Source of the DNA: Rhodobacterales bacterium HKCCE4037
GTDB lineage: Bacteria > Pseudomonadota > Alphaproteobacteria > Rhodobacterales > Rhodobacteraceae
NCBI GenBank assembly: GCA_015689645.1
Contig: WVSM01000001.1
Span: forward strand, 1-64,000
Length of the DNA stretch: 64,000 nt
Reading direction: 5' to 3'
Shown in pieces: positions 1,889 through 12,589 of the stretch (positions within the stretch are counted from its first letter, which is position 1; each line of letters starts with the position of its first letter). A model generated the notes under the pieces. The model made no database searches. It was not told where the DNA came from and was given only the letters and a program-made list of their open reading frames with translations. The position numbers and the translations under genes are program-made.

Positions 1889-3073
1889 TCACTTTCCCAG
1901 CTCGCGCATGCCGCGGTCGATGCCTTCCAGGGTCATCGGCACCATGCGGCCTTCGAAAATTTCGGAGATCATCTGCGTCGATTGCGTGTAGCGCCAGTGT
2001 TTCTCGGGCGTGGGGTTGATCCACAGGTGATCGGGCCATTGGGTGCGGGCGCGTTGCAGCCAGGTGCTGCCGGCCTCGGCGTTCCAATGTTCGTTGGCGC
2101 CGCCGGGAAACGCGATCTCGTAGGGGGACATGGCGGCGTCACCGACGAAGATACATTTGTAGTCGGGGCCGTAGGTGTTCATCACCTCGTAGGTGGGGAT
2201 CTGCTCGGACCAGCGGCGGCGGTTGTCGCGCCAGACGGCCTCGTAGAGGCAGTTGTGGAAATAGTAATATTCGAGGTGCTTGAACTCCGCCTTGGCGGCT
2301 GAGAACAGCTCTTCCACCACCTTGACGTGGTCATCCATGGAGCCGCCGACGTCGAGGAACAGCAGCACCTTCACGGCGTTGCGCCGCTCGGGCCGCGTCT
2401 TGACATCGAGCCAGCCCTGTTCGGCGGTGGCGCGAATGGTGCCGTCGAGGTCGAGCTCTTCCGCCGCGCCGTCGCGGGCCCATTGACGCAGGCGCTTGAG
2501 CGCGACCTTGATGTTGCGGGTGCCCAGTTCGACGTCGCCGTCGAGGTTGCGGAATTCGCGCTTGTCCCAAACCTTTACGGCGCGGCGGTGGCGGCTTTCG
2601 TGCTGGCCGATGCGGACGCCCTCGGGGTTGTAGCCGTAGGCGCCGAAAGGCGAGGTGCCCGCTGTGCCGATCCACTTGGAGCCGCCCTGGTGGCGGCCCT
2701 CCTGTTCCTTCAGGCGCTCGCGCAGGGTTTCCATGAGCTTCTCGAAGCCGCCCATCGCCTCGATCTCGGCGCGTTCTTCTTCGGTCAGGTGTTTCTCGGC
2801 GAGCTTTTCCAGCCACTCCGCCGGGATCTCGGTGGCTTCCAGAACGTCGTCGCAGCTGATGGATTCCAGCCCGGAAAAGGCGTGGGCGAAGGCCTGGTCG
2901 AAGCGGTCGAGGTGGCGCTCGTCCTTCACCATCGCGGTGCGGGCGAGGTAGTAGAAGCCGTCGACGTCGTAGGTCACGAGGCCACGGCTCATCCCCTCCA
3001 GGAAGGCGAGGTATTCCCGCAGGGAGACCGGGATGCGGGCGGCGCGGAGGGCTTCGAAGAAGGGCAGGAACAT
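1889..3073 (-). CDS. VWA domain-containing CoxE-like protein
   Basis: Start taken at ATG 3073, giving 394 residues beginning MFLPFFEALRAARIP. This is the conserved N-terminus of CoxE-like proteins, so an upstream in-frame extension to 3142 is unlikely. GTAGTSPFGAYG (about 136-147) is typical of this family. The VWA part carries a degenerate MIDAS, DVGGS at 241-245, with glycine in place of the first serine of DxSxS. Such proteins work with MoxR AAA+ ATPases in metal-dependent maturation or chaperone functions. The matching MoxR gene lies about 2.5 kb upstream on the same strand. The target complex is not evident. Confidence 0.85.
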   Translation of the reverse strand: MFLPFFEALRAARIPVSLREYLAFLEGMSRGLVTYDVDGFYYLARTAMVKDERHLDRFDQAFAHAFSGLESISCDDVLEATEIPAEWLEKLAEKHLTEEERAEIEAMGGFEKLMETLRERLKEQEGRHQGGSKWIGTAGTSPFGAYGYNPEGVRIGQHESRHRRAVKVWDKREFRNLDGDVELGTRNIKVALKRLRQWARDGAAEELDLDGTIRATAEQGWLDVKTRPERRNAVKVLLFLDVGGSMDDHVKVVEELFSAAKAEFKHLEYYYFHNCLYEAVWRDNRRRWSEQIPTYEVMNTYGPDYKCIFVGDAAMSPYEIAFPGGANEHWNAEAGSTWLQRARTQWPDHLWINPTPEKHWRYTQSTQMISEIFEGRMVPMTLEGIDRGMRELGK

Positions 3074-3123
3074 GGGGCAAGGGTAGCGCGATTGCGGGGC
3101 GGGGTCGAATGGGAAATCAGGGC

Positions 3124-3143
3124 CTTGTGCACGCGTGCACAAG
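3124..3143. promoter_or_regulatory. 20-bp perfect palindrome upstream of the VWA gene
   Basis: CTTGTGCACGCGTGCACAAG reads identically on both strands over 20 bases. It lies 51 bp upstream of the VWA gene start, a position that suits an operator for a dimeric regulator. It is not followed by a T tract, so a terminator role is less likely. The cognate regulator is unknown. Confidence 0.5.
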
Positions 3144-5555: not shown

Positions 5556-6395
5556 TCAGCGCTGGCCCCGCGCCATGAAAGCAAGGCGTTCGAAGAGGGC
5601 CACGTCCTGTTCGTTCTTCAGGAGCGCGCCGTGCAGTTTCGGCAAGGCATTGGCCCCGTCGCGGCGCAGATCCTCGGGCGAGAGATCCTCGGCCAGCAGG
5701 AGTTTCAGCCAGTCGAGCACTTCGGAGGTCGACGGTTTCTTCTTCAGGCCCTGCTGCTCGCGAATCTCGTAGAATTGGGTCAGCGCGGTGGCCAGGAGAT
5801 CCTGCTTGATGCCGGGGTGGTGCACCTCGACGATCTTCTTCATCGTCTCGGCATCGGGGAAGCGGATGTAATGGAAGAAGCAGCGGCGCAGGAAGGCGTC
5901 GGGCAGTTCTTTCTCGTTGTTCGACGTGATGATGACGATGGGCCGGGTTTTGGCCGTGATCGTCTCGCCGGTTTCGTAGACGAAGAATTCCATCCGGTCG
6001 AGTTCCTGCAGCAGGTCGTTCGGAAACTCGATATCGGCCTTGTCGATCTCGTCGATCAGCAGCACGACCCTCTCGCCCGCTTCGAAGGCCTGCCAGAGCT
6101 TTCCCTTGCGGATGTAGTTCTTCACGTCATTGACACGTTCGTCACCCAGCTGGCTGTCGCGCAGGCGCGAGACGGCATCGTATTCGTAGAGGCCCTGCTG
6201 CGCGCGGGTGGTGGATTTGATGTGCCATTCGATGATCGGCAGGCCGAGCGCACCGGCCACCTGGCGGGCCAGTTCGGTCTTGCCGGTGCCGGGTTCGCCC
6301 TTGACCAGAAGTGGCCGTTCCAGCGTGACGGCGGCATTGACCGCGACGGTCAGATCTTCGGTTGCGACGTAATCCTCGGTGCCCTGGAAACGCAT
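5556..6395 (-). CDS. MoxR family AAA+ ATPase
   Basis: A 279-residue AAA+ ATPase. Walker A is GEPGTGKT (33-40), Walker B is LLIDEID (112-118) and sensor 1 is TSNN (157-160). The start at ATG 6395 is chosen because AGGATCAGGG lies upstream. The longer frame to 6524 adds low-complexity sequence with no family match. MoxR ATPases act as chaperones that, with VWA partners, insert metals or cofactors or remodel complexes. The VWA/CoxE gene at 1889-3073 on the same strand is the probable partner. The gene is divergent from dksA across a 260-bp gap that should hold both promoters. Confidence 0.9.
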   Translation of the reverse strand: MRFQGTEDYVATEDLTVAVNAAVTLERPLLVKGEPGTGKTELARQVAGALGLPIIEWHIKSTTRAQQGLYEYDAVSRLRDSQLGDERVNDVKNYIRKGKLWQAFEAGERVVLLIDEIDKADIEFPNDLLQELDRMEFFVYETGETITAKTRPIVIITSNNEKELPDAFLRRCFFHYIRFPDAETMKKIVEVHHPGIKQDLLATALTQFYEIREQQGLKKKPSTSEVLDWLKLLLAEDLSPEDLRRDGANALPKLHGALLKNEQDVALFERLAFMARGQR

Positions 6396-6655
6396 GACGC
6401 CCTGATCCTTTCGGTGCTCGAACCCCGTTTCGGGTAATGGTCCGGCCCGCGAAACGCAAGCGGGGGGCACCGGTTCACAAATCTGCGCATATCCTGCGCT
6501 AAAGCTTTGAATACGGGTATACATCTGGTAGGAGCCCGATGTGTTTGCACGCGTGACATTACCGGACGCAGGGTGTAAGCGGTCACCGAGGCCAGACCCG
6601 ATGGCCGGTTATGCGAGGCACCATGGCAAACACAGGCGCCATCGAGGGGAGCAAC

Positions 6656-8366: not shown

Positions 8367-9107
8367 CTATTCGAAAGAATAATCCGGCAGCGAGTTCACC
8401 GCCTCGCGCAGCTTGTCGCCCCAGCCCGAGGAGATCCTGGTGTAGAACGCATCGTCTGCCGCGATTCGCCGGATATACCCGTGGCGATAGGTGTCGGCCT
8501 CGTAGATATGCACATCGAGCGGCATGCCGACGCTGAGATTGGCCTTCACGGTCGAATCGAAACTCAGCATCAGGAGCTTCACGGCGGCCTCGAACGTCAT
8601 CGCCGGATCGTAGGCCCGCACGAGTATCGGTTTGCCGTATTTCGTTTCGCCGATCTGGAAAAACGGTGTGTCGTCACAGGCTTCGACGAAATTGCCTTCC
8701 GGGTAGATCATGAAAAGGCGCGGCTCGCCGCCGCGCACCTGGCCGCCGAGGATCAGGGTGGCGCCGAAGGAACTGTCGGCCTGCGGCCCCTCGATCCCGG
8801 ATTGTTCGGCGATCACCTCGCGGAGGGTTTCCCCCACGAGCTTGGCGATCTGGAACATCGACGGCGCTTCGATGATCGACAGACGCCCGCGCTCCTCGGC
8901 GGGAAGCGACCGTTCGTTCAGCAGGCTGACCACGGCCTGAGTCGTGGCGAGGTTGCCTGCCGTCATCAGGGTGATGGAGCGCTCGCCCTCAACCTCCCAT
9001 TGGAACATCTTCTTGAAAACGCTGATGTTATCGACGCCCGCGTTGGTCCGGGTGTCCGACATGAACACCAGCCCGCGGTCCAGTTTCAATCCCACGCAAT
9101 AGGTCAC
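8367..9107 (-). CDS. Proteasome-type Ntn-hydrolase protease
   Basis: A 246-residue member of the stand-alone bacterial 20S-like family (COG3484). Starting at GTG 9107, behind GGGGGATC, gives the N-terminus MTYCVGLKLDRG. Removal of Met exposes Thr2 as the N-terminal nucleophile. Asp18 (SDTRT) and Lys32/33 (VFKKM) fill the other catalytic positions of proteasome beta subunits. A longer in-frame start at TTG 9122 would bury Thr and is rejected. It is the last gene of the ATP-grasp, alpha-E and transglutaminase block, where it may process or recycle products of the peptide ligase. The substrate is unknown. Confidence 0.88.
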   Translation of the reverse strand: MTYCVGLKLDRGLVFMSDTRTNAGVDNISVFKKMFQWEVEGERSITLMTAGNLATTQAVVSLLNERSLPAEERGRLSIIEAPSMFQIAKLVGETLREVIAEQSGIEGPQADSSFGATLILGGQVRGGEPRLFMIYPEGNFVEACDDTPFFQIGETKYGKPILVRAYDPAMTFEAAVKLLMLSFDSTVKANLSVGMPLDVHIYEADTYRHGYIRRIAADDAFYTRISSGWGDKLREAVNSLPDYSFE

Positions 9108-9164
9108 GGCCCGATCCCCCAAGACACCTGCAGTCGTTCATAGCGCCGCAGGGTTAACCATCAT

Positions 9165-9968
9165 TTACTGCTGTGCCACCTGGATGTCGACGGCCATCGC
9201 CTCGCCCTCCGCACCGTAATGCAATCCGGCGATCGGCGCGGCTTCGGCATAATCGAGCCCGGTGGCCACGCGCACGTAACGCGGATCGGGAGAATAGCCG
9301 TTCGACACGTCGAAGCCGACCCAGCCGAGCCCGTCGATATGCGCCTCGGCCCAGGCGTGGGAGGCATCCTGGTGGATGCGGTCGGTCATCATCAGGTAAC
9401 CGGACACGTAGCGCGCCGGGTGCCCCAGCGCCCGCGCCCCGGCGAGGAAGATATGGGCGTGGTCCTGGCAGACGCCCGCACCGATGCCGAGCGCGTCTTC
9501 GGCGGTCGTCCCGGCCTCGGTACGCCCGATCTCGTAGGGGACGGCCTTGAGGATACGCGCCGAGAGCGCGTGCAGGCGTGGCAGATCCTCGGCATGTTCG
9601 TCGCGCAGCCCCTTGATCAGCGACCGGACCTTCTGGCCGGCCCGCGTCAGGTCGGTGGATCGTTTGAAATACCACAAGGGGGCAAAGCCGCCGTGCTTGC
9701 CGATGACCCCGGCGGTATCCTCGGTCTCCACGTCGCCCTTGCAGGTGATCGTGACCTCGGTCGCCTGCGGATCGAGCGACACCAGCGTCACGCGGTTGGA
9801 ATGGTGATCGATGAAGGAGGTCTCGATCTTGCCGCCTTCAACCTCCATCCGCCAGTCCGCGATGGTCTGGCCGTTGTGGTCCTTGGGCGTCAGCCGCAAT
9901 TGTTGCAGCCCGTAGAAGGCGGGCGTGTCGAAGCGATAGCTCGTGGTGTGCTGAATCGATAGTTTCAT
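9165..9968 (-). CDS. Transglutaminase-like cysteine peptidase-fold protein
   Basis: A 267-residue protein with an N-terminal beta-rich domain (about 1-90) and a C-terminal transglutaminase core. The catalytic triad is visible: Cys167 in GAGVCQDHAH, His204 in ASHAWAEAH and Asp220 in GWVGFDVSNG. Bacterial members act as peptidases or as amide-forming transferases. The gene lies 21 bp after the alpha-E gene and 57 bp before the protease gene on the same strand. Linked alpha-E and ATP-grasp genes suggest a role in a peptide-tag or crosslinking pathway; that role is inference from conserved neighbourhoods. Confidence 0.9.
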   Translation of the reverse strand: MKLSIQHTTSYRFDTPAFYGLQQLRLTPKDHNGQTIADWRMEVEGGKIETSFIDHHSNRVTLVSLDPQATEVTITCKGDVETEDTAGVIGKHGGFAPLWYFKRSTDLTRAGQKVRSLIKGLRDEHAEDLPRLHALSARILKAVPYEIGRTEAGTTAEDALGIGAGVCQDHAHIFLAGARALGHPARYVSGYLMMTDRIHQDASHAWAEAHIDGLGWVGFDVSNGYSPDPRYVRVATGLDYAEAAPIAGLHYGAEGEAMAVDIQVAQQ

Positions 9969-9989
9969 GTCATCTGCCTTGCCGTCCGC

Positions 9990-10931
9990 TTACCCGAGGA
10001 ACCTGTAGTCGCGCTCGATCTCGCCGCCGAGATGGCCGAGGTTGTTGAGGAAGTCGGTGAGGAATTCATGCAGGCCTTCTTCGAACACGTCCTCGATCGT
10101 GCCGTGCCGCAGTTGTGCTGCCAGGATGTCGATCTGGTCATGGCACGGGTGGCGCTGGCCATAATTCTCTTCGAGATAGGCGAGGTTGGTGGCGATCTTG
10201 CGCACCGTGAACCGCAGCGAGCGGGGCATGCGGCCGTCGAAGATCAGGAAATCGGCGATGCCGCGCGGCGTAATCTCGCCCTGGGTCAGCCAGCGATAGG
10301 CGCGGGAGCCTGCCACGGCGCGCAGGATCGTCTCCCATTGCACGTTGTCGAGGCTCGATCCGATCTGCGTGACCGAGGGCAGCAGGACGTAATATTTCAC
10401 GTCGAGGATGCGCGCGGTGTTGTCGGCCCGTTCGAGAAAGGTGCCGAGGCGGCAGAAATCGAAGATGTCGTTGCGCAGCATCGTGCCGTGCATCGCGCCG
10501 CGCACAAGGCCGGAATGCTGGCGCACGGTGGCCAGCACCTCGGGCAGGTGTTTCGGCGCGATGGGGCGGGCGAGGGTGTACTTCAGGGCCATGTAGGCCT
10601 CGTTGATGGCCTCCCACACTTCGCGGGTCAGGGCGGTGCGGGTCAGCCGCGCGTTCTGCCGTGCGGCGGCGATCGACGACATGACCGAGGACGGGTTGTC
10701 GGTGTCGCGCAGCAGGAAGTCGATGGCCTTGGCCTGGTCGACATCGCCGTGCTTGGCCCGGTAGAGCTGGTCGACCGCCGCGGTCTGCAGCACCGATTGC
10801 CATTCGTCATCGGCGCCCGCCGGACGGGTCAGCGCGATGCGGAAGCCGGTTTCGATGAGGCGCGCGGTATTTTCCGAGCGTTCGAGGTAGCGGAAGAGCC
10901 AGAAGAGGCCGCCTGCGGTTTTGCCTAGCAT
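9990..10931 (-). CDS. Alpha-E domain protein
   Basis: A 313-residue, largely helical protein with no membrane segment. The N-terminus MLGKTAGGLFWLFRYLERSE is characteristic of the alpha-E superfamily, which is nearly always found beside circularly permuted ATP-grasp ligases and transglutaminase-like proteins. Conserved ERSENTAR-type acidic and basic positions recur internally (ERADNTARILD near the middle), as expected for the helical repeat. No enzymatic activity is established for the family; it may be a scaffold or substrate-handling subunit. The start lies 4 bp after the ATP-grasp stop. Confidence 0.9.
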   Translation of the reverse strand: MLGKTAGGLFWLFRYLERSENTARLIETGFRIALTRPAGADDEWQSVLQTAAVDQLYRAKHGDVDQAKAIDFLLRDTDNPSSVMSSIAAARQNARLTRTALTREVWEAINEAYMALKYTLARPIAPKHLPEVLATVRQHSGLVRGAMHGTMLRNDIFDFCRLGTFLERADNTARILDVKYYVLLPSVTQIGSSLDNVQWETILRAVAGSRAYRWLTQGEITPRGIADFLIFDGRMPRSLRFTVRKIATNLAYLEENYGQRHPCHDQIDILAAQLRHGTIEDVFEEGLHEFLTDFLNNLGHLGGEIERDYRFLG

Positions 10932-10935
10932 CGCG

Positions 10936-12363
10936 TTACTCCTCCAACACCCAGGTGTCCTTGGTGCCGCCGCCCTGCGACGAGTTCACCACGAGGCTGC
11001 CCGCCTTGAGCGCGACCCGCGTCAGCCCGCCGGGCGTGAGCGTGATCCGGTCGGGCGACATCAGCGCGAAGGGGCGCAGGTCGACGTGGCGCGGGGCGAG
11101 GCCCTTGGCCGTCAGGATCGGGCAGGTCGAAAGCGCCAGCGTGGGCTGCGCGATGTAGTTCCCGGGCTTGGCCTCCAGCTTCTTGCGGAATTCGGCGATC
11201 TCCTTTTTCGAGGCGGCGGGACCCACGAGCATGCCGTAGCCGCCCGAGCCGTGCACCTCCTTGACGACCAGCTCGGGCAGGTTGTCGAGGACGTATTTCA
11301 GGCTGTCCTTCTCGGAGCAGCGCCATGTCGGCACGTTCTGCAGGATCGCCTTCTCGCCGGTGTAGAACTCGACGATATCCGGCATGTAGCTGTAGATCGC
11401 CTTGTCGTCGGAAATCCCGGTGCCCGGCGCGTTGGCGATGGTGATCCCGCCCGCGCGGTAGACATCCATGATGCCGGGCACGCCGAGCATCGAGTCGGGG
11501 TTGAAGTTCAGCGGGTCGAGGAAATCGTCGTCGACACGGCGGTAGATCACGTCGATGGGCTTGTAGCCTTCGGTCGTGCGCATGGCGATGCGGCCATCGA
11601 CGACGCGCAGGTCGTGGCCTTCGACCAGCTCCACGCCCATCTGGTCGGCGAGGAAGGCGTGTTCGAAATAAGCGGAGTTGTGAATGCCGGGCGTGAGCAC
11701 CGCGACGGTCGGGTCGCCGTCACACGCCGTGGGCGCGCAGGCGGCAAGCGAGCGGCGCAGGCTGGTGGGGTAGTTGCCGACCGGCTGCACCTTGATGCGC
11801 GAAAACAGCTCGGGGAACATCTGCAGCATCGTCTCGCGGTTTTCGAGCATGTAGCTGACGCCCGAGGGCGTGCGGGCGTTGTCTTCGAGGACGAAGAAAT
11901 CATCCTCGCCGGTGCGCACGAGGTCGGTGCCGACGATATGGGTGTAGACGCCGCCGGGCGGCTCCACCCCGATCATCTGCGGCAGGAACGCCTCGTTCCG
12001 GTCGATGAGTTCCTTGGGCACGCGGCCCGCGCGTAGGATCTCCTGCCGGTGGTAGATGTCGTAGAGGAAGGCGTTGATGGCGCGCACGCGCTGTTCGATG
12101 CCGCGGGTCAGCTTGGACCATTCGCGGCCCGAGATGATGCGCGGCACGATGTCGAAGGGGATCAGGCGCTCTTCCGCCTCGGCCTGTCCGTAGACGTTGA
12201 AGGTGATCCCGGTGCGCCGGAAAAAGGTTTCGGCGTCGGTCGATTTACGGCGGAGATCGTCGAGGTCTTCGCTGTCGAACCATTCGGCGTAAGACGCGTA
12301 AGGTGCGCGGGCCTCGGATTGCCCGGCATACATCTCGTCGAAAAAACGGCTTTGGTCGTTCAT
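10936..12363 (-). CDS. Circularly permuted type 2 ATP-grasp ligase
   Basis: A 475-residue protein starting at ATG 12363 behind AGGAGGAGAC. FVLEDNARTPSGVSYMLENR is the conserved acidic and basic segment of the DUF404/DUF407 permuted ATP-grasp family, and LVVKEVHGSGGYGMLVGP provides the ATP-binding lysine and glycine-rich loop. ATP-grasp enzymes activate a carboxylate as an acyl phosphate and join it to an amine. This branch is predicted to make or attach peptides. It heads the four-gene block with alpha-E, transglutaminase and proteasome-type protease. Its promoter should lie in the 226-bp gap upstream. Confidence 0.92.
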   Translation of the reverse strand: MNDQSRFFDEMYAGQSEARAPYASYAEWFDSEDLDDLRRKSTDAETFFRRTGITFNVYGQAEAEERLIPFDIVPRIISGREWSKLTRGIEQRVRAINAFLYDIYHRQEILRAGRVPKELIDRNEAFLPQMIGVEPPGGVYTHIVGTDLVRTGEDDFFVLEDNARTPSGVSYMLENRETMLQMFPELFSRIKVQPVGNYPTSLRRSLAACAPTACDGDPTVAVLTPGIHNSAYFEHAFLADQMGVELVEGHDLRVVDGRIAMRTTEGYKPIDVIYRRVDDDFLDPLNFNPDSMLGVPGIMDVYRAGGITIANAPGTGISDDKAIYSYMPDIVEFYTGEKAILQNVPTWRCSEKDSLKYVLDNLPELVVKEVHGSGGYGMLVGPAASKKEIAEFRKKLEAKPGNYIAQPTLALSTCPILTAKGLAPRHVDLRPFALMSPDRITLTPGGLTRVALKAGSLVVNSSQGGGTKDTWVLEE

Positions 12364-12589
12364 GTCTCCTCCTAGCGTAAGGGTAGCAGACGAGGTCTTG
12401 AGGGAAAGGGCCAGTCTTTTCAGTCGCCTTTATTGAGTTACGTCGGTGCTTTGCCTATTTTTTGGGCAATATCGCAGGTCTCGGATTCGGCAAAATCCGT
12501 AAGGAAAACCGCAGCTTCCCGGTGGCGATGGGTGGGCGGCGTTGCAAACGGCGCTTCTGGCGAAAATCTTGCGACCGGCGGGCAATAAG

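Follow-up and report, generated by a model that had tools for sequence, protein, structure and literature searches.

Why do genes for an ATP-grasp enzyme, an Alpha-E protein, a transglutaminase and a proteasome-like hydrolase follow each other in a bacterial genome? This question is raised by a block on the minus strand of contig WVSM01000001.1 of Rhodobacterales bacterium HKCCE4037, which occupies positions 12363–8367 of the 64,000 nucleotides analysed (this whole stretch is referred to as the window). The original prediction, made from the DNA alone, had described a complete block of four genes predicted to make or attach peptides and degrade them, much as Pup-proteasome systems do. The four open reading frames are indeed located head to tail at this place, and the gaps between them, claimed to range from 4 to 57 base pairs (bp), measure 4, 21 and 57 bp. 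The block is a complete Anbu-1 operon, which has already been published, and not a new system. Its transglutaminase ends with a glutamine residue that proved to be a conserved property of the family. We propose that the operon provides a cycle in which amide bonds are made and broken and in which this C-terminal glutamine is a working part, a reading to which we assign a probability of about 0.4.

Identity of the operon

The first gene (10936–12363, minus strand) codes for a circularly permuted type 2 ATP-grasp protein of 475 amino acids (PF14403, E 1.9e-166), which matches PDB entry 3n6x in a sequence search (E 1.3e-197) and was also aligned within 19 sequences. It is followed by the gene for the all-helical Alpha-E protein (9990–10931, minus strand; 313 amino acids; PF04168, E 7.7e-93) and by that for a transglutaminase-like protein of 267 amino acids (9165–9968, minus strand; PF08379, E 2e-20; PF01841, E 2.4e-19; PDB entry 3isr, E 7.7e-20), for which an AlphaFold model of high confidence is available (mean predicted local distance difference test (pLDDT) 97). 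The triad Cys167-His204-Asp220 claimed for this protein was found in an alignment of 19 sequences, in which the histidine and the aspartate are invariant and the cysteine is nearly so. The last gene (8367–9107, minus strand) codes for Anbu, a proteasome-like Ntn-hydrolase. With these families and with the alignments of Anbu and of the transglutaminase, the description of the block as complete with intact active residues is confirmed.

The longest Anbu frame begins at a TTG codon (9122), six residues ahead of a threonine. However, a start codon directly precedes the Thr-Tyr pair in all 23 of 23 Anbu homologues of relatives, and GTG at 9107 is therefore the likely start and the threonine the first residue of the mature protein, as expected for the Ntn-hydrolase with an N-terminal threonine that had been predicted. 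Thr1, Asp17 and Lys32, the roles of which have been described (PMC5666114, PMC6376114; published work is cited throughout from partial texts of the papers), are invariant in an alignment of 18 sequences, and a propeptide is absent. Five PDB matches were obtained (best E 7.8e-85), three of which are named Anbu while 5nyw is named only peptidase; 5lox represents the Pseudomonas aeruginosa protein studied in PMC5666114, and the sequence match to 5loy extends over its entire chain (query residues 7–250). The residues T20, F30, T48 and L52, named in PMC5666114 for the S1 pocket of Anbu-1, are all present, so that the pocket as read from the sequence is of the Anbu-1 type rather than the basic Anbu-2 type; position 55 is threonine here versus serine in the P. 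aeruginosa protein.

The order ATP-grasp, Alpha-E, transglutaminase and Anbu on one strand is that of the Anbu operon as known from Valas and Bourne 2008 and Iyer 2009 (via PMC5666114, PMC6376114). The four families, their order and their strand are shared with the operons of P. aeruginosa, Yersinia bercovieri and Hyphomicrobium, and the Anbu active residues and pocket residues with Anbu-1 operons, without any difference found. A new or unusual gene block is thus ruled out, as the published operon was matched in every feature tested. The same four genes, so named, stand side by side in a Limimaricola variabilis plasmid record.

Alpha-E is the least understood member of the operon. Its model is confident and all-helical (mean pLDDT 92, residues 185–190 below 50); a fold search of the PDB with this model gave no significant match (threshold E 0.001; best hit E 0.75), and the best hit of a sequence search of the PDB was not significant (E 0.068). 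Solved structures exist for Anbu and for close relatives of the ATP-grasp protein. The latter ends in aspartate or glutamate in 103 of 129 distinct proteins, mostly right after a conserved KDTWVL core; its C-terminal region has been compared with that of HslU (PMC6376114).

Linkage of the four families

Neighbourhood statistics, suggested by the original prediction as a check, were obtained from 299 genomes of Pseudomonadota, the same genomes being searched with Anbu and with Alpha-E, both at E 1e-20. Anbu is present in about a third of the sampled genomes (101/299) and Alpha-E in 156. The latter was found in 100 of the 101 Anbu genomes versus 56 of the 198 genomes without Anbu (Fisher p 3e-37, relatedness ignored). 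A loss of linkage in most relatives, which had been named as an outcome that speaks against the prediction, was not seen: at least 84 of the 101 genomes with Anbu have the Alpha-E gene no more than 6 kb away from it, and in at least 78 the Alpha-E gene is located upstream of Anbu on the same strand within this distance. These distance counts are lower bounds, and one linked genome (G180) is added by a separate reading of its locus.

At the level of loci, the 80 best Anbu loci of genome_contigs include 74 with the four genes in the same order and on the same strand; this set of 80 was taken from at least 597 confirmed Anbu loci and is biased to close relatives. Three of the remaining six end at contig ends (L074, L078, L107) and three are exceptions (L096, L137, L139). 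Sixty loci of a phylum sample were hand-picked from 102 Anbu places, favouring distant genomes; 26 of them show the plain four-gene order and 13 have no other family within the stretch fetched. Apart from a handful of genome_contigs records with titles from other phyla, all counts refer to Pseudomonadota. The four families tend to occur together, yet Anbu is sometimes found away from the others, and these three can also be present without Anbu.

Some loci show other arrangements. In eight of them (L203, L206, L207, L208, L210, L217, L218, L221) Anbu has as its neighbours a fused ATP-grasp/Alpha-E gene and, on the opposite strand, a transglutaminase gene; after Anbu, another transglutaminase-like frame extends past the edge of the stretch. 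A megaplasmid of Acidithiobacillus caldus (L280) carries two Anbu-like genes near glnL, which codes for a nitrogen-control sensor kinase. In a Klebsiella pneumoniae record (L282) the Alpha-E match is split over two overlapping frames; the incomplete PLSDB table lists no gene for it and lists the other three.

The C-terminal glutamine of the transglutaminase

The transglutaminase of the window ends with ...VDIQVAQQ. The codons of the two terminal glutamine residues are located at 9168–9173 (minus strand), and alignments, C-terminus counts and a tree point to the last glutamine as the conserved one. Glutamine is the last residue in 112 of 125 transglutaminases that are encoded with an unfused Alpha-E and an Anbu gene on the same strand; nine more have glutamine-rich ends and four have neither. 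After removal of one duplicate the figure is 111 of 124 distinct proteins, and a smaller count gave 75 of 77. Clustering lowers the proportion to 80/89 at 70% identity, 46/55 at 60% and 15/21 at 50%. Counted back from the end, the frequency of glutamine is 0.90, 0.64, 0.22 and 0.43, compared with a whole-protein background of 0.05. The tail beyond reference position 262 comprises 4 to 35 residues, and glutamine is last in 111 of 119 tails of 4–15 residues. The 13 exceptions among the 124 proteins end in alanine (5), serine (4), glycine (3) or valine (1), never in glutamate. The underlying table excludes frames of more than 345 amino acids, short matches to the profile and frames truncated at a contig end; it holds six further orphan transglutaminases outside the groups, three of them ending in glutamine.

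This end is a feature of the transglutaminase and not of its partners: none of 129 ATP-grasp proteins, 4 of 142 Alpha-E proteins and 4 of 161 Anbu proteins end in glutamine. It is also found outside Alphaproteobacteria, for example in Caballeronia (...QATADQ), Aeromonas caviae (...DGQQQ) and Klebsiella pneumoniae (...QAQQQ). Counter-examples to the glutamine end are Methylobacterium bullatum (...AAVQV) and the ...QSQSQS tails of L234, L239 and L270.

Both glutamine codons are used for the last residue (68 CAG, 43 CAA), as are all three stop codons. A FastTree tree of the 124 proteins, computed from sequences lacking the tail, shows 11 changes of the last residue, 26 exchanges between CAA and CAG and 35 changes of the stop codon, compared with 30 changes for the median column; 68 of 257 columns vary no more than the last residue. 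Conservation at this position is good, without reaching the level of the most conserved positions of the transglutaminase, and the C-terminal glutamine is under purifying selection. It is a family property in Pseudomonadota. No mention of it was found in the parts of the Anbu-operon literature covered here; it may still have been published, Iyer 2009 being outside this coverage.

Loss of the catalytic cysteine in clusters without Anbu

The transglutaminase triad is intact in all 125 proteins with an adjacent Anbu gene. Of 30 unfused clusters in which Anbu is not adjacent, 6 have lost the catalytic cysteine, compared with none of the 125 with Anbu (Fisher p 3e-5, relatedness ignored); histidine and aspartate are retained in the six proteins, four of which belong to one genus (L055, L251, L252, L254; the other two are L247 and L249). 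The respective six genomes (G036, G202, G229, G260, G266, G278) gave no Anbu match anywhere. The clusters without Anbu were hand-picked, favouring unfused frames, and come from 27 of the 56 genomes that have Alpha-E but no Anbu (28 if G036 is included). Those lacking the cysteine possibly represent a natural decay series of the system.

Possible function of the operon

For the four proteins we propose a cycle of amide-bond formation and cleavage. In such a cycle the ATP-grasp protein, helped by Alpha-E, would activate a carboxylate and form an amide bond, the transglutaminase would act on the side-chain amides of glutamine residues by exchange or deamidation, and Anbu, as a hydrolase with an N-terminal threonine, would cleave amide bonds of the products. 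The tail of the transglutaminase would be read by a partner as a free C-terminal glutamine, most likely by the ATP-grasp/Alpha-E pair or by the transglutaminase site itself. We infer that the cycle is linked to nitrogen shortage. The glutamine could serve as a substrate, as a Pup-like handle or as a docking or structural end. One special form of the proposal, which we consider unlikely, is that the tag is encoded in the operon itself. The substrate would then be the C-terminal glutamine: the transglutaminase and the ATP-grasp/Alpha-E pair would deamidate or extend its side-chain amide or carboxylate or join it to an amine, and the product would be removed or cleaved by Anbu. If this were true, the operon would represent a Pup-like modification system that is built from unrelated enzymes and uses an enzyme as the modifier.

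What is published on the individual proteins gives a mixed picture. Anbu assembles as an open split ring (PMC5666114, PMC6376114), and Thr1 of the P. aeruginosa protein reacts with epoxomicin and MG132 (PMC5666114). The Y. bercovieri ATP-grasp protein releases phosphate from ATP (PMC6376114). Several observations weigh against the proposed cycle or against the part of the glutamine in it. Phosphate release by the ATP-grasp protein was not stimulated by glutamine, glutamate or Anbu, and no specific complex among the operon proteins was found (PMC6376114); the parts of the Anbu literature covered name no substrate or product. None of five tails of 17 residues or more ends in glutamine. In the AlphaFold model the last strand (257–266) is ordered to the last residue, with a mean pLDDT of 97 for the last block. 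Of the 30 unfused clusters that have no Anbu gene next to them, eleven nevertheless encode a transglutaminase with a terminal glutamine and five more one with a glutamine-rich end, and the tail is therefore not dependent on Anbu; a tie of the tail to Anbu is favoured by the raw comparison of 112/125 with 11/30 (Fisher 6e-9, relatedness ignored), but not by independent pairs, and was rejected. L247 and L249, two of the six proteins lacking the cysteine, keep glutamine-rich ends; the tail is therefore more than a substrate of its own enzyme, and the idea that it exists solely because the transglutaminase acts on it is weakened. Finally, the tree shows only two changes of the cysteine, four of the six cases coming from one genus, so that the coupling of cysteine and Anbu rests on about two events; independent-pair tests of it gave no significant result, the number of pairs being too small to reach 0.05.

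The biochemical negatives have to be read with the constructs in mind. In the published pull-down the transglutaminase was tagged at its C-terminus, and the phosphate assay of the ATP-grasp protein was performed with free amino acids and other proteins (PMC6376114). Because of the C-terminal tag and since no substrate ending in glutamine was used, as far as the partial text goes, these results do not bear on a free glutamine end. More generally, the earlier tests made use of free glutamine or glutamate, fluorogenic peptides and the C-terminally tagged transglutaminase, and a free C-terminal glutamine end does not appear among them in the texts covered (PMC6376114, PMC5666114). The conserved tail is thus a concrete place to look for the role of the system and makes the question directly testable. 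The host genome is a clean test bed: it is 99.93% complete and has a single match each for Alpha-E, PF08379 and PF14403, no Pup match and one further proteasome-family gene, which is located on a different contig and is probably HslV by inference.

Alternative explanations concern either the operon as a whole or the glutamine. Anbu may be a peptidase for general turnover in nitrogen shortage, with the other three proteins making an unrelated small amide or peptide and nothing but regulation being shared. We regard this as somewhat improbable. It would agree with the conclusion of Fuchs 2017, drawn from structure and inhibitor binding, that protein degradation is more likely and peptide synthesis less likely (PMC5666114), and with two features of the distribution, namely the 16 of 101 Anbu genomes without Alpha-E seen within 6 kb among the places listed and the 56 genomes that carry Alpha-E without Anbu. 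It is weakened by the finding that, unlinked cases included, just one of the 101 genomes with Anbu has no Alpha-E, and standard proteasome peptides were left uncut by the Anbu proteins tested (PMC6376114, PMC5666114).

As to the glutamine, it may be purely structural, capping the last strand and packing on the protein or on a subunit contact, without being the target of an enzyme. The ordered last strand of the model fits a structural end, too, as does the same short end of 4 or 5 residues after reference position 262 in 78 of 124 proteins. On the other hand, 33 of 41 tails of 6–15 residues have glutamine as the last residue, and these ends are unlikely to lie in the same place; in addition, none of 17 transglutaminases of the fused-ligase cluster described below ends in glutamine. 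We regard a purely structural role as somewhat improbable, too. Functionless drift of a CAG repeat or of a low-complexity tail would explain why some tails are long and repetitive (QSQSQSQ, QQQQ). Such an origin is highly improbable in view of the use of both glutamine codons and all three stop codons, the 26 synonymous versus 11 residue changes, and a glutamine frequency that peaks at the very last position.

Comparison with related systems

The prediction of a system that makes or attaches peptides and degrades them is a real one and dates from 2009 (Iyer et al., via PMC5666114, PMC6376114), but its first half, peptide synthesis, is disfavoured by Fuchs 2017. The likeness to Pup-proteasome systems holds only as an analogy. 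An amide ligase, a proteasome-like hydrolase and a protein that ends in glutamine are common to both, and the conserved C-terminal glutamine recalls that of mycobacterial Pup, which is made with a C-terminal glutamine and deamidated before ligation (PMC7947786). The differences are that the ligase is of the ATP-grasp type whereas PafA has a glutamine-synthetase fold (PMC7947786), that the Anbu operon has no AAA+ gene, and that the glutamine ends an enzyme and not a small modifier. Neither Pup (PF05639) nor a PafA/Dop-type ligase (PF03136) had a match in the host genome, Corynebacterium glutamicum being positive as the control in both searches, and the gaps in the operon leave no room for a small modifier gene.

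The fused-ligase cluster shares the ATP-grasp, Alpha-E and transglutaminase families with the Anbu operon. It differs by having ligase and Alpha-E in one frame of approximately 800 amino acids and by the ends of its transglutaminases. This cluster was not seen in the host genome, as judged from the single matches for Alpha-E, PF08379 and PF14403.

Upstream region and neighbouring genes

A conserved block with the pattern CTGGCCCTTTC...CTG.TA (12382–12414, minus strand) is located upstream of the operon. In an alignment of the window with nine relatives it is kept in eight, L050 being divergent, and it is possibly a promoter or control element. A sigma-54/NtrC promoter was rejected: no such site was found upstream of the first gene, and the block does not match the sigma-54 consensus. 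With up to 2 mismatches to this consensus, the window has 16 sigma-54-like sites versus a mean of 25.8 after shuffling. In nitrogen-limited Pseudomonas putida Anbu is increased, and its expression was unchanged under several other conditions (PMC5666114). An ntrC mutant of Burkholderia cenocepacia shows lower expression of a related cluster without Anbu, which consists of ATP-grasp, Alpha-E and transglutaminase genes and that of a large transglutaminase-like protein in place of Anbu (PMC5491218).

Downstream of Anbu, beyond genes on the opposite strand, lies an AAA ATPase gene (5556–6524) with a weak match to the MadB family, below the cut-off. This gene was ruled out as the missing unfoldase, the neighbourhood being kept in 8 of 23 Anbu loci of relatives, seven from the genus of the window and one from another genus of the family (one of the 23, L039, ends before the position of the AAA gene). 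An AAA+ partner such as those of HslV and the 20S proteasome was found neither in the operon nor conserved beside it in these 23 loci. A gene for a CoxE-type VWA protein (1892–3142) is likewise located downstream of Anbu past the opposite-strand genes.

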